A stretch of 64,000 bases of DNA from Vagococcus fluvialis bH819 (GTDB lineage Bacteria; Bacillota; Bacilli; Lactobacillales; Vagococcaceae), in contig NZ_FWFD01000002.1 in assembly GCF_900163795.1 (NCBI RefSeq), positions 1 through 64,000 on the forward strand, written 5' to 3'. The translations under genes and the position numbers were made by a program. The stretch's first letter is position 1, and every line of letters starts with the position of its first letter. The notes under the pieces are model-generated. The model worked only from the letters and a program-made list of their open reading frames with translations, had not been told where the DNA came from and did not search any database. This document shows positions 8,981 to 14,075 of this stretch, piece after piece.

Positions 8981-9427
8981 CTAATGATTTAACTTCTCTT
9001 TAATAATCGCTTCAGTTAATGTTTTTGAAAAGTTTAAATGTAATTCTTTACCAAGTTTATCTGCCCACTTTGGAATAGCTAAGGTTTTTTTTATAGGTTC
9101 TTCTAATCCTAAGTATTCTATTAAATTAACATTAACCATGGAGATAAATGATTTTTCTGGGTCAAACATAAAATTAAAATCATCATCATCTTGAAACGGG
9201 GCATTATGTGTTAAGGACAACTCGTTAATATTGGAAGGTTTTGGAAGCTCTCTCTTATTTTCAAAATCATCGGCTAAACGAATACCCAAATATTCTGAGC
9301 CCATTGCGATAGCATCTGGTATATTTATCCCTTGTGTTAGACCATCTAAATCAGGAAAGTAAATTTGAAATGGAACGGACGAACTATTGTCTTCATAATA
9401 AAAAATAGCTGGATAACTTATCAACAT
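8981..9427 (-). CDS. hicB: HicB-family antitoxin
   Basis: A 148-residue antitoxin. The N-terminal half YPAIFYYEDNSSSVPFQ...FPDLDG with downstream EYLGIRL is the HicB partial RNase-H-like fold that caps the toxin. The C-terminal part (about 108-145, MVNVNLIEYL..., KKTLAIPKWADKL) looks like the DNA-binding ribbon-helix-helix module of Gram-positive HicB proteins. It follows hicA after about 30 bases on the same strand with GGAGG before its ATG. By family it neutralises HicA and represses the hicAB promoter. Confidence 0.88.
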   Translation of the reverse strand: MLISYPAIFYYEDNSSSVPFQIYFPDLDGLTQGINIPDAIAMGSEYLGIRLADDFENKRELPKPSNINELSLTHNAPFQDDDDFNFMFDPEKSFISMVNVNLIEYLGLEEPIKKTLAIPKWADKLGKELHLNFSKTLTEAIIKEKLNH

Positions 9428-9458
9428 AATAAAATCCTCCTTATTCAGTAGGAGCTGA

Positions 9459-9644
9459 CTATAATAAGTCAGCGTCCTTCAATATACTCCGTTCAGTTCC
9501 CTTTTTTAGTTCACCTTGAGGAATAATGATAGGCCTCGTTAGTCCAGGTTTTGTCATTTTTATATGAGAACCCTTACCACCATTAACTTTTGTAAAGCCA
9601 TGATTTTTTAAAAACGCGACCATTTCTTTTTGTGTCATCGGCAT
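9459..9644 (-). CDS. hicA: HicA-family toxin (mRNA interferase)
   Basis: A 61-residue double-stranded-RNA-binding-fold toxin. The sequence MTQKEMVAFLKNHGF, then GGKGSHIKM with the catalytic His, then PGLTRPIIIPQ and the C-terminal lysine-rich segment match HicA. I place the start at ATG 9644, ten bases after AGGAGG; a second ATG at 9638 is possible, and longer upstream starts run back into the promoter. First gene of hicAB. It should cleave mRNA when HicB is lost (family knowledge). Confidence 0.88.
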   Translation of the reverse strand: MPMTQKEMVAFLKNHGFTKVNGGKGSHIKMTKPGLTRPIIIPQGELKKGTERSILKDADLL

Positions 9645-9669
9645 GTGCACGATACCTCCTGACATGATT

Positions 9670-9698
9670 ATTATAGCACGTGTTACACGTGTAATCAA
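9670..9698 (-). promoter_or_regulatory. hicAB promoter with double CACGTG operator
   Basis: Minus strand: TTGATT (9698-9693), exact 17-base spacer, TATAAT (9675-9670). The spacer holds two palindromic CACGTG hexamers (9677-9682 and 9686-9691) three bases apart. This arrangement suits autorepression by the HicB dimer or HicAB complex. Confidence 0.8.
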
Positions 9699-11170: not shown

Positions 11171-11208
11171 ATCTCACTCGACAGTTAAAATTCGGGTGAG
11201 ATTTTTTA
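11171..11208 (+). terminator. Terminator after the orphan EIIC
   Basis: ATCTCACTCG pairs with CGGGTGAGAT (one G-U) and is followed by TTTTTTATTTT. It reaches the stop codon of the convergent DUF1722 gene. Confidence 0.8.
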
Positions 11209-11574
11209 TTTTGGAAATAAAATTCGGGATTGTAAGAGATATTTTTTATCATATTTGATACTCAAATTTTGACAAAAACTTCGAATGTCTTCTTCATCAA
11301 GGGGCAGACTATTTAACAATGCTTGAAACTTTTCTTTTTCTTCTGATGTGGCACATTTTTTGAAGTAGCCCCAAACATGTTGGTAGGCATTGGTTAGGGA
11401 ACCTTTTGTAGGTGGCGTTTGTTCTGCATGTAAGATAGCTTCTTTAAATTCTTCTTCTAAATTCTCATTTGTAGTAGAAAATAATTGTCTAATATATAAG
11501 TACTCTTTTTGGGAATGAGCCATGACAAAGTATTTTTGATACGCCCATTCATTTTCAAGAATTTTAGTCATCAT
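11206..11574 (-). CDS. DUF1722 (YbgA-like) protein
   Basis: A roughly 122-residue protein whose start (ENEWAYQKYFVMAHSQKEYLYIRQL) matches the DUF1722/YbgA family, in which this His-Ser-Gln segment is conserved. Molecular function is unknown. ATG codons at 11574 and 11571 both follow GGAGG at acceptable distance; I use the first. It begins 15 bases after the ABC permease stop, so it is probably the last gene of a peptide/ABC operon. Its role there is not evident. Confidence 0.75.
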   Translation of the reverse strand: MMTKILENEWAYQKYFVMAHSQKEYLYIRQLFSTTNENLEEEFKEAILHAEQTPPTKGSLTNAYQHVWGYFKKCATSEEKEKFQALLNSLPLDEEDIRSFCQNLSIKYDKKYLLQSRILFPK

Positions 11575-11589
11575 CAAAGACCTCCAAGC

Positions 11590-12747
11590 TTATTTAACAC
11601 GTTTTTTTCTATTTCTAGGATAGAAGATAAAACATAGCATCATAGTAATATAAAATAGTAATACTTTGATTCCCATGATAAAGGAGATGTTAAAATTGTC
11701 AATGTTATATTGATAGACACCGGTGGTAATGTCATAGCAGTAAATATAAGTCATTGGTAGATATTGGGCATTTTCTTGAATGGGTTGAATAAAGTTAACT
11801 AAAAACATGCTTCCAAATAAAATTATACTTGAAAGCAAGAGGGTGGTTAATTTATTTTTAGAAACAAGTGCAAGCAGATAAGTTAGACAAACTAAAAAAA
11901 TAATCATTAACAGTTGTAAACAGAGGGTTGGTAAAATCGTTTTTTTTACTTCTGCGAAATATATAGTATGAGATGTAAGATTATAGTGTAAAACAGGATA
12001 ATTGAAACTTCCCATTTTAAAAGGAATCGTTGTGATTAAGAAAGCGACTAATAAAGAACATACTAGAAATGAACAGGCGATAACAAGTCCACTGATTAAA
12101 TTTTTGGAATGAGTGATTGCTTTTTTTTGTGGTAATAAGTCCATTTTATTAATATCTTCATGAAAGAACGAACCATATAAATTAGATAAAATAAACAAAA
12201 TAGAGATACTTAAAAGGACAGGGAAAATATAGATAAAAAGGGATAGCGTGTATTGAATGCCAGTATAAGGGTAATTAACGTCTTCGAAAGGAATTGTTTT
12301 CTTAGCTAATGTTTCGTATAGTTTTAAGTCTCTATCTAAAGCGTTGATTAGATCTTTACTGGGTTCAGCATAGCTAGTGCTTTTTTGCGATCTTTTTATG
12401 TTATCAATCTGTTTTAAATAGACATTTTTCCATTCTTCATTATTAAATTCATTTAGAAAAATTTTATCCTGTTCTATTTGTTTTTTTGAATCCACAAGAT
12501 TTTTTTCTAAATAGCTTGCCTTTTCAGAGTTGGAATCTTGTTGTGTGGTAATTTCTTGTTCTAAAGTATAAATATTTTCAGCATTTTGTTGGATATTATT
12601 TCTAATTTGAGTACCTAAACTTCTTTCTAGACTAGCACTATGGTTTAAAAAAGGAGGAATACTAATAGCTAAAAATAATAAACATAAAGGAATCCATGTT
12701 GTTTTTTGTTTAATAACTTGTTTTACTAGAAAAATAAAATGACTCAT
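11590..12747 (-). CDS. ABC transporter permease with large external loop
   Basis: A 385-residue membrane protein. One N-terminal membrane segment (about 15-33) is followed by a roughly 130-residue hydrophilic, Gln/Glu/Lys-rich, coiled-coil-like extracytoplasmic region (about 40-165), then about five membrane segments and a basic tail (PRNRKKRVK). This is the ABC-2 export/immunity topology rather than an importer. Its start overlaps the ATPase stop by four bases (ATGA), so the two form one transporter. The small secreted peptide upstream suggests export of, or resistance to, a peptide; this is inference. Confidence 0.75.
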   Translation of the reverse strand: MSHFIFLVKQVIKQKTTWIPLCLLFLAISIPPFLNHSASLERSLGTQIRNNIQQNAENIYTLEQEITTQQDSNSEKASYLEKNLVDSKKQIEQDKIFLNEFNNEEWKNVYLKQIDNIKRSQKSTSYAEPSKDLINALDRDLKLYETLAKKTIPFEDVNYPYTGIQYTLSLFIYIFPVLLSISILFILSNLYGSFFHEDINKMDLLPQKKAITHSKNLISGLVIACSFLVCSLLVAFLITTIPFKMGSFNYPVLHYNLTSHTIYFAEVKKTILPTLCLQLLMIIFLVCLTYLLALVSKNKLTTLLLSSIILFGSMFLVNFIQPIQENAQYLPMTYIYCYDITTGVYQYNIDNFNISFIMGIKVLLFYITMMLCFIFYPRNRKKRVK

Positions 12748-13370
12748 AGCTTGGAAACCTCCATTGTTTGATTTTTTAGAAGTAATAAATAATCACAAAA
12801 TTCTTCGATATCTTCTTTATAGTGTGACGATAAAATAATCGTTTTACCTTGTTGCTTTAATTGGGATAAAGTCGTGTACAATATTTTTCTGCTTTCTTCA
12901 TCTAAGCCATTGGTGATTTCATCCATTAACAAGTAATTGGCATCACTGACTAAATATAATGAAATGAGTAATTTTTGTTTCATTCCTAAAGAATATTTTT
13001 TTATAGGTAATCGAATATAATCTTCCATTTGCCATAAAGTAATGATATCTGAAATCTCTTTTGATGAATGCCATTGTTTTTTTATAAAAGTTAAATAATC
13101 AAGCCCTGATAAATTAAGATCGAACCATTCATTAGATTCGAAGTAAAAGCAGTGTTTGTTGATTAAAAAATCTGACTTATCTTGAACTTCTTGAATAGAA
13201 AAAGAACCAGAATCTATAGGAGTTAGCCCCATAATTGCTCTGAAAAAAGTTGTTTTACCAGATCCGTTAACGGCAACAATGCCATATAAGTGTCCTTTTT
13301 CAAAAGTAAATGAAAAACCTGTTAAAATAGGGATCCTTTTTTTTATAGTCAAATGATCAATAAGTAGCAT
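12744..13370 (-). CDS. ABC transporter ATP-binding protein
   Basis: A 208-residue single nucleotide-binding domain: Walker A AVNGSGKTT, a YSLGMKQK signature in place of the usual LSGGQ, Walker B YLLMDEITNGLD and a switch histidine in LSSHYKED. The variant signature and short length are usual for ABC-2 exporters and bacteriocin-immunity transporters. Start ATG at 13370 lies five bases after GGAGG; an upstream TTG in frame is part of that ribosome site. A hairpin terminator ends directly before the ribosome site. Partner is the overlapping permease gene. Confidence 0.85.
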   Translation of the reverse strand: MLLIDHLTIKKRIPILTGFSFTFEKGHLYGIVAVNGSGKTTFFRAIMGLTPIDSGSFSIQEVQDKSDFLINKHCFYFESNEWFDLNLSGLDYLTFIKKQWHSSKEISDIITLWQMEDYIRLPIKKYSLGMKQKLLISLYLVSDANYLLMDEITNGLDEESRKILYTTLSQLKQQGKTIILSSHYKEDIEEFCDYLLLLKNQTMEVSKL

Positions 13371-13383
13371 AGTTTCCTCCAAA

Positions 13384-13412
13384 GATAAAAAGACTGATTA
13401 AAAAATCAGTCT
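13384..13412 (-). terminator. Terminator/attenuator between peptide gene and ABC genes
   Basis: On the minus strand AGACTGATT pairs with AATCAGTCT over nine bases, followed by TTTTTATC and then the GGAGG of the ABC ATPase gene. The ABC genes have no obvious promoter of their own here, so they are probably reached by read-through, keeping the peptide in excess. Confidence 0.75.
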
Positions 13413-13455
13413 CTATTTATTTTACAGTGCTGAATGGATAAGAATTTTTTTTCGT

Positions 13456-13713
13456 TTAATAACCACCAGAATAGTAGTTCACATGCTCGTATCTGTTGTA
13501 GTTCCATCCTCCTCCAACCTGATATTCACTAAAACCTGTATAGCGAGATGAATTTGGTATATTAATATACTGATAAGCATGATAATTCATAGTAGTATTA
13601 TAATAAGTGTTATAGTCATATCGATATTTTTTTGTAACGCTAACTGCTGAAGCACTAACTCCGCTAAAAGTAGTTATTCCAAGTATTGATAATAAAAATA
13701 TTTTTTTCTTCAT
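13456..13713 (-). CDS. Small secreted tyrosine-rich peptide (possible bacteriocin-like)
   Basis: An 85-residue protein with a clear signal peptide: MKKK, a hydrophobic core to about residue 20, and an SASA-type cleavage site. The mature part of about 62 residues is unusual: some fifteen tyrosines, many Asn/Thr/Gly, no Cys, ending in VGGGWNYNRYEHVNYYSGGY. The GGxWxY segment recalls lactococcin-972-type bacteriocins, but there it lies near the mature N-terminus while here it is at the C-terminus, so I do not assign the family. AAAAGGATG precedes the ATG. Downstream on the same strand are an attenuator-like hairpin, an ABC-2 transporter and a DUF1722 gene. Confidence 0.65.
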   Translation of the reverse strand: MKKKIFLLSILGITTFSGVSASAVSVTKKYRYDYNTYYNTTMNYHAYQYINIPNSSRYTGFSEYQVGGGWNYNRYEHVNYYSGGY

Positions 13714-14075
13714 TTTGTATCATCCTTTTCTTTTTAATTTGCTAATCGATTAACTTAAATCTAGTATACTTATTTTTAACGAAGGATAAATAAATATTCG
13801 TTATTTTTTAATCATAATATTATTTTTGGATAAATAGAGTGACGTTAATATTTGTTTTTGTGAATATAAGTCTATTATTTTAATATAAAACATCCTTTTA
13901 AAAAATAAACGGTTTTTTTATTTAATTGATTTGATAGTAGTTTTAAATTGCTTTAATTTCATTATGTCTATCTTTAATAAAAATAAATTAAACTGAATTA
14001 GCACAAAGTACTTAAATTAAAAAAATTTAATGATAAAATAGAAACAGTGACTGTAGAAAATAAGGAGGTAAAAAA
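13714..14075. other. AT-rich intergenic region with two promoters
   Basis: 362 bases, strongly A/T. For the peptide gene (minus) a TATACT -10 is at about 13764-13769; just upstream lies the inverted repeat TAACGAA (13777-13783) N13 TTCGTTA (13797-13803), a candidate operator. For the DUF924 gene (plus) TAAAAT at 14034 with a poor TTAAAT -35 is the best promoter. No open reading frame or repeat family member seen in the rest. Confidence 0.5.

Follow-up and report, generated by a model that had tools for sequence, protein, structure and literature searches.

In Staphylococcus, the Pmt transporter exports PSM peptides and gives the producing cell immunity (PMC5354552), and LugGH offers a precedent for an ABC pair that serves in self-resistance (PMC7927808). 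In S. salivarius, ComR paralogues are established as direct drivers of bacteriocins (PMC6703854), and a ComR homologue is found alongside the streptococcin B locus (PMC11796350). The 64,000-nt stretch of Vagococcus fluvialis bH819 analyzed here (NZ_FWFD01000002.1, positions 1 to 64,000; the window) contains a gene for a Tyr-rich secreted peptide followed by genes for an ABC ATPase and an ABC permease. Most likely, they represent an undescribed family of peptide antibiotics of lactic-acid bacteria and their relatives and, in the ABC pair, its producer-protecting pump. A preliminary description of this DNA had reported an 85-residue exported peptide with about 15 tyrosines and no cysteine, followed by a hairpin and an ABC ATPase/permease pair, and this arrangement was confirmed by ORF, profile and terminator analyses. 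The features of the locus, in window coordinates, are as follows.

11206-11577, minus strand: DUF1722 gene (profile match to PF08349)
11590-12747, minus strand: ABC permease, 385 aa, predicted type V exporter fold (AlphaFold2 pLDDT 80, pTM 0.75; PmtCD Z 15.8)
11597-14074, minus strand: whole accessory cassette, comprising the promoter and the genes for peptide, ATPase and permease (missing in the sister species G006; blastn against L168/L178)
12268-12627, minus strand: helical insert spanning roughly residues 41-160 behind transmembrane helix 1, presumed to form an external domain (from the modelled secondary structure; not in the 247-aa PmtD match)
12744-13370, minus strand: ABC ATPase, ATG start with a GGAGG site (PF00005, E 6e-18; the ORF tool's TTG start is at 13382)
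13389-13414, minus strand: terminator-like hairpin AGAGACTGATTTTTTAATCAGTCTTT between the peptide and ATPase genes, probable attenuator (terminator scan, fold z; hairpins in six other peptide-first loci)
13456-13713, minus strand: Tyr-rich secreted peptide precursor, 85 aa (ORF; 20-member family alignment with a conserved D-x-N, P, GWNYxRY core)
13459-13644, minus strand: predicted mature peptide of 62 aa with 15 Tyr and no Cys, modelled at moderate confidence with four beta strands (AlphaFold2 pLDDT 66, pTM 0.48)
13645-13713, minus strand: predicted Sec signal peptide, residues 1-23, SASA end (sequence inspection; position and A-x-A pattern kept in relatives)
13777-13803, no strand: TAACGAA-N13-TTCGTTA inverted repeat of the peptide promoter, unproven and without statistical significance (shuffle test, genome search)

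The peptide ORF begins with an ATG preceded by the ribosome-binding site AAAGGATG. Its precursor reads MKKKIFLLSILGITTFSGVSASA up to the putative cleavage site and VSVTKKYRYDYNTYYNTTMNYHAYQYINIPNSSRYTGFSEYQVGGGWNYNRYEHVNYYSGGY beyond it. By inspection, the N-terminus has the basic n-region, hydrophobic core and SASA/V cleavage-like site of a Sec signal, and such a signal was likewise recognized in the relatives and is present in intact family members. From residue 24 onward, the predicted mature peptide carries a net charge of +2 and ends in VGGGWNYNRYEHVNYYSGGY; it is probably unmodified. Neither the window peptide nor the 19 relatives collected matched any Pfam or NCBIfam profile, those of wall and spore protein families included, and a profile of the family found no match among PDB sequences. 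A match to a known wall or spore family, which the preliminary description had named as evidence against its reading, was looked for and not found. Judged by sequence, the window peptide founds an unnamed family that is missing from both libraries (20 members scanned), and the existence of a conserved family shows that it is more than a chance ORF. The AlphaFold2 model of the peptide was all-beta, with four predicted antiparallel strands. A Foldseek search with this model, which is of only moderate confidence, returned no significant match, and no lactococcin 972 structure appeared; the best VIA match (Z 3.9) was a ribosomal protein and is uninformative.

Alignment of the 20 members gave the core V-x-(K/Y)-x-Y-x-(Y/F)-D-x-N-K-x-T-G ... 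P ... G-W-N-Y-x-R-Y ... Y-Y. One form of the family, ending in NYYSGGY, occurs in the window, S. suis, S. mitis, Ligilactobacillus apodemi and Lentilactobacillus hilgardii, and another, ending in TKKYY(H), in Listeria floridensis and one genus of family f8. The named relatives, which were retrieved in a single pass over 84,980 species genomes, also adjoin an ABC pair (S. mitis, S. suis, L. apodemi, L. hilgardii, Holdemanella biformis and L. floridensis). A wider, class-level survey detected the peptide in 5 of 399 genomes and added no members to those already found. Locus-tag and keyword searches of the literature yielded no description of the peptide.

When the peptide profile was run against 395 genomes of the order, 36 had matches at E ≤ 0.001. 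Two weak matches, lying inside 192-codon and 824-codon frames, were set aside; in all 34 that were kept, which carry the peptide or its relics, an ABC permease match lay within ~2.5 kb on the same contig. The outcome that the preliminary description had named as refuting its reading, homologues that never lie beside the ABC genes, was thus not encountered, and linkage to the candidate immunity gene is obligate in this set (34/34). The permease profile had many relatives in the 395 genomes, and the ABC family also occurs without the peptide in many genomes. Gene order varies. The peptide gene comes first in the window, S. suis and Holdemanella, last in the Listeria type, and is divergent in G013 and G114; the permease precedes the ATPase in L. 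apodemi and G059; and two permeases are present in L. hilgardii, G114 and G197. In G099 and G344 the module is present twice in tandem, and the peptides of the two copies have diverged. In G058 (L127 8206-8502), a more distant permease relative lies beside a different secreted Tyr-rich peptide of 98 aa that has no GWNY motif, which suggests that other peptide families pair with the same class of transporter.

The peptide and ABC pair form a transferable two-part module with a patchy distribution, an empty site and low GC. In blastn comparisons with the sister species G006 (L168/L178), homology ended at position 11596 and restarted at 14075. At the empty site of that species (L168), the flanking DUF1722 and DUF924 genes are 57 bp apart, and its DUF924 protein is 90% identical to that of the window; the 2.48-kb cassette is inserted between the divergent start regions of the two genes. 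Its GC content of 27.0%, against 33.8%, is the lowest among all 2478-bp stretches of the 64 kb. Searches of plasmids, phages and viral contigs with the peptide gave no match and hence no indication that a plasmid or phage carries it. In the permease tree, the window protein grouped with the S. suis permease (support 99/97, 36% identity) and not with its own genus. The DUF1722 gene, which the preliminary description had counted as part of the system, proved to be a bystander, because the sister species keeps it beside DUF924 without the cassette; 11 of the 14 genomes from the genus have genes of this type, and the cassette is missing from nearly all of those 11. A role as system component was rejected on both grounds. 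Elsewhere in the window (8981-9698, minus strand) lies a HicAB-like toxin-antitoxin pair, with a HicA toxin domain (PF07927, E 2e-15) and a 148-aa partner that is HicB-like by eye and had no Pfam match at E 0.001.

The hairpin at 13389-13414 is followed by a T-tract and has a fold z of -2.5. The terminator scan found four candidates in the 3-kb region, compared to 0.7 in shuffles. Hairpins with unrelated stem sequences (-11.8 to -18.0 kcal/mol) also follow the peptide gene in S. suis, L. apodemi, L. hilgardii, Holdemanella, G059 and G197, and are wanting in some peptide-first loci. Hairpins at the same place with unrelated stems are as expected for a selected attenuator, and the window hairpin is a probable one. 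The promoter repeat fared less well: it exists as originally noted, but two inverted repeats were seen where 1.0 per 150 bp was expected in this AT-rich promoter, 7% of shuffles had a repeat with at least two G/C per arm, and the sequence TAACGAA-N13-TTCGTTA was found only once in the genome. Since the repeat is unique and near chance level, we rejected it as the operator of a regulon.

The window ATPase scored highest against the NCBIfam profile for PmtC (NF047568), at 97 bits against a cut-off of 375, and was likewise under the cut-offs of TIGR03740 (lantibiotic protection, LanF-type; 89.9 bits, cut-off 309.75) and TIGR03608 (70 bits, cut-off 255). The nearest fold neighbours of the permease model were PmtCD (Z 15.8; rmsd 3.3 over 228 residues), ABCA1 (15.2) and NosFY (15.0), and the transmembrane domain is accordingly modelled as a type V ABC exporter fold. 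Beyond the type V core, the model has ~120 extra, mostly helical residues.

No regulator was found next to the window cassette. In S. suis, the peptide is preceded by a ComR-type regulator (PF18710, ComR-TPR, E 4e-56), by two GACA-N4-TGTC sites (three in the 17-kb locus, 0.27 expected) and by a WW micro-ORF ending in ...ISGWWIKRG or ...GDVWWTF. The GACA-N4-TGTC sites resemble ComR boxes. The ComS-like micro-ORFs MFGYFKILDISGWWIKRG and MLKYFFGKLGDVWWTF lie between the ComR-type gene and the peptide gene (L083 11503-11853 and L039 3563-3937), and in the second of these S. suis strains two tandem ComR-like genes are present. Rgg_C regulators adjoin the peptide copies of G197 and G316. Directly 3' of the S. 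suis module are a lactococcin 972 relic and then genes for a TIGR01654 protein and a TIGR03608 ATPase; the relic is N-truncated and directly follows the permease gene (L083, about 9230-9460). Directly downstream of the G059 module are relatives of TIGR01654 and TIGR03608 just under the curated cut-offs, plus a YxeA protein. The TIGR01654 and TIGR03608 proteins are absent from the window; they were confined to S. suis and G059, where they make up an additional module adjoining that of the Tyr-rich peptide. A HicA/HicB-like pair, recognized by eye, is near the G059 cassette (L085 11274-11927), probably by coincidence.

The ABC pair was present in 27 of 147 Streptococcus genomes, 23 of which belong to the mitis group, where it lies between comEC and infC, directly downstream of comEC. 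SP_0957 and SP_0958 are presumably this comEC-linked pair, going by the comEC-infC gene order; the only mention of SP_0957 found in the literature was as an ABC gene whose expression is altered along with that of coiA. A peptide pseudogene is located between comEC and the ABC pair in these streptococci (L037 4001-6061, L089-L111), with an A-tract just after the peptide start codon as a frequent site of frameshifts. The mitis-group peptide has stops, frameshifts or a lost start in all but two genomes: in G461 the peptide, its start and ribosome-binding site and the ABC genes are all intact, and G443 combines an intact peptide ORF and a poor ribosome-binding site with a frameshifted ATPase. Apart from G443 and from the G475 permease, which is interrupted by masked sequence, the mitis-group ABC genes are intact. 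Median pairwise dN/dS, which includes the history preceding peptide loss, was 0.11 for the ATPase (21 sequences), 0.28 for the permease (19 sequences) and 0.49 for the peptide relic. The mitis-group ABC genes are therefore under purifying selection, while nearly all species have only a pseudogene of the peptide. ABC pairs whose peptide is missing or broken were also found elsewhere (G006, G013, G086, G142, G180, G266 and G348), and the permease tree required seven changes of peptide label, at least five of them forced by well-supported branches. The reverse case, in which the peptide ORF is intact and the ABC genes are damaged, was seen at three loci: G443, G269 (ABC genes decayed) and G220 (frameshifted permease). 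In G220 an assembly error is likely, because the adjoining nagB-like gene is frameshifted as well. Uncoupling is thus mostly one-way, which favours immunity, although the asymmetry is not absolute.

The Sec signal, ABC genes that outlive the peptide, bacteriocin neighbours and bacteriocin-type regulation lead us to propose, with a probability of about 0.7, that the cassette encodes a Sec-secreted, beta-sheet-rich bacteriocin and a dedicated two-gene ABC pump for self-immunity. The precursor would exit through the Sec pathway with removal of its signal peptide, and the mature 62-residue peptide would attack related, transporter-free cells at their envelope. The hairpin would end most transcripts behind the peptide gene, giving far more peptide than transporter, and the ATPase/permease pair, as a PmtCD-like type V exporter with an extra helical external domain, would recognize the peptide and expel it at the producer membrane. 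The secreted peptide with a private ABC transporter, proposed initially as bacteriocin-type architecture, is strongly supported by the 34/34 linkage and by the regulators and lactococcin-972-type genes at several loci. Counting against a bacteriocin with immunity are the three loci with intact peptide and damaged ABC genes (G443, G269 and G220), as well as a peptide model of moderate confidence without a fold match, dN/dS values that reach back before peptide loss, and a window cassette with no adjoining regulator.

The transporter had been offered for production or immunity alike; a peptide with its own Sec signal needs no dedicated exporter, so that immunity is the more likely of the two roles. 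A role in PSM/Pmt-like release, the ABC pair exporting the peptide or extracting it from the producer membrane, with immunity secondary or absent, would agree with the strict peptide/ABC linkage and with the permease fold and top ATPase profile, both those of PmtCD, which exports and protects (PMC5354552). We nevertheless consider it unlikely, as PSMs lack a Sec signal such as this peptide has, and as purifying selection keeps the ABC genes where the peptide is dead. The richness in Tyr, Asn and Gly and the predicted antiparallel strands might instead befit a surface, matrix or amyloid-like structural protein, the ABC pair then handling another substrate. For such a protein, strict ABC linkage, an intergenic hairpin, regulators of the quorum-sensing type, diverged copies in tandem and a patchy distribution would be unusual, and it would belong to no matched wall or spore family, which makes this a distinctly improbable reading.

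Peptide sensing, also raised in the preliminary description, gained no specific support. A large external helical domain in the permease model and ComR/Rgg regulators near some copies could suit a peptide cue with the ABC pair as its sensor, but no two-component system lies beside the peptide/ABC module, the recognizable pheromone of S. suis is the separate WW micro-ORF and not the Tyr-rich peptide, and the same ABC family persists peptide-free in many genomes; we regard a sensor as very improbable. Least probable of all is a degenerate or rearranged bacteriocin of the lactococcin 972 family, despite a GGGWNY motif and the tandem arrangement with lactococcin 972-type genes in two lineages. PF09683 matched neither the window peptide at E up to 1 nor its 20 relatives at E up to 0.1, the permease is of a different class, and hhalign gave a probability of 0.7% over 6 columns, so that the faint resemblance noted earlier reduces to a six-residue coincidence. 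Homology was rejected since the profile scan, the PF09683 genome survey and hhalign were all negative.

The bacteriocin and self-immunity reading may be taken further, tentatively and at somewhat less than even odds: the peptides could form an undescribed class of Sec-secreted, Cys-free, Tyr-rich beta-sheet bacteriocins, the type V ABC immunity exporter could bind them by a helical ectodomain, and the comEC-linked orphan pump of mitis-group streptococci could act as a competence-linked shield against peptide-making relatives. If true, this would add a peptide family, unnamed in current annotation libraries, to the antimicrobials of lactic-acid bacteria, listeriae and streptococci, and would assign a concrete role to the uncharacterised comEC-adjacent ABC transporter of the mitis group. 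Close relatives carry the module either intact or orphaned, which makes the producing, immune and sensitive states directly testable.

The locus shares with LanFEG-type lantibiotic immunity transporters and LugGH (PMC7927808) a dedicated ABC pair beside an antimicrobial gene, the candidate in our case, and its ATPase scores 90 bits to TIGR03740, though under the cut-off (310). It differs in having one permease gene only and a cassette without LanB/C/M modification enzymes or NRPS genes. With PmtABCD, the PSM exporter of Staphylococcus (PMC5354552), it shares the core fold of the permease and the top NCBIfam profile of the ATPase, and the model proposed here for the ABC pair is that of PmtABCD, a peptide-linked exporter giving producer immunity (PMC5354552). 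However, the window system has one pair instead of two, an extra helical domain and an ATPase far under the PmtC cut-off, and its predicted substrate is a Sec-secreted beta peptide, whereas that of PmtABCD is a leaderless amphipathic helix. Lactococcin 972-type loci such as streptococcin B scbABC (PMC11796350) have the same succession of a Sec-signal peptide gene, an ABC ATPase and a membrane protein, a ComR-type regulator, and strains without the peptide that retain the other two genes (PMC11796350); in two genomes they stand in tandem with the Tyr-rich peptide module. In contrast, the Tyr-rich peptide is unrelated by sequence, the ATPase is far from TIGR03608, and the 385-aa type V permease takes the place of a 7-TM DUF1430/TIGR01654 protein. 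By analogy, the module would work like a lactococcin 972 locus, with predicted killing and protection, while standing outside the lactococcin 972 family.
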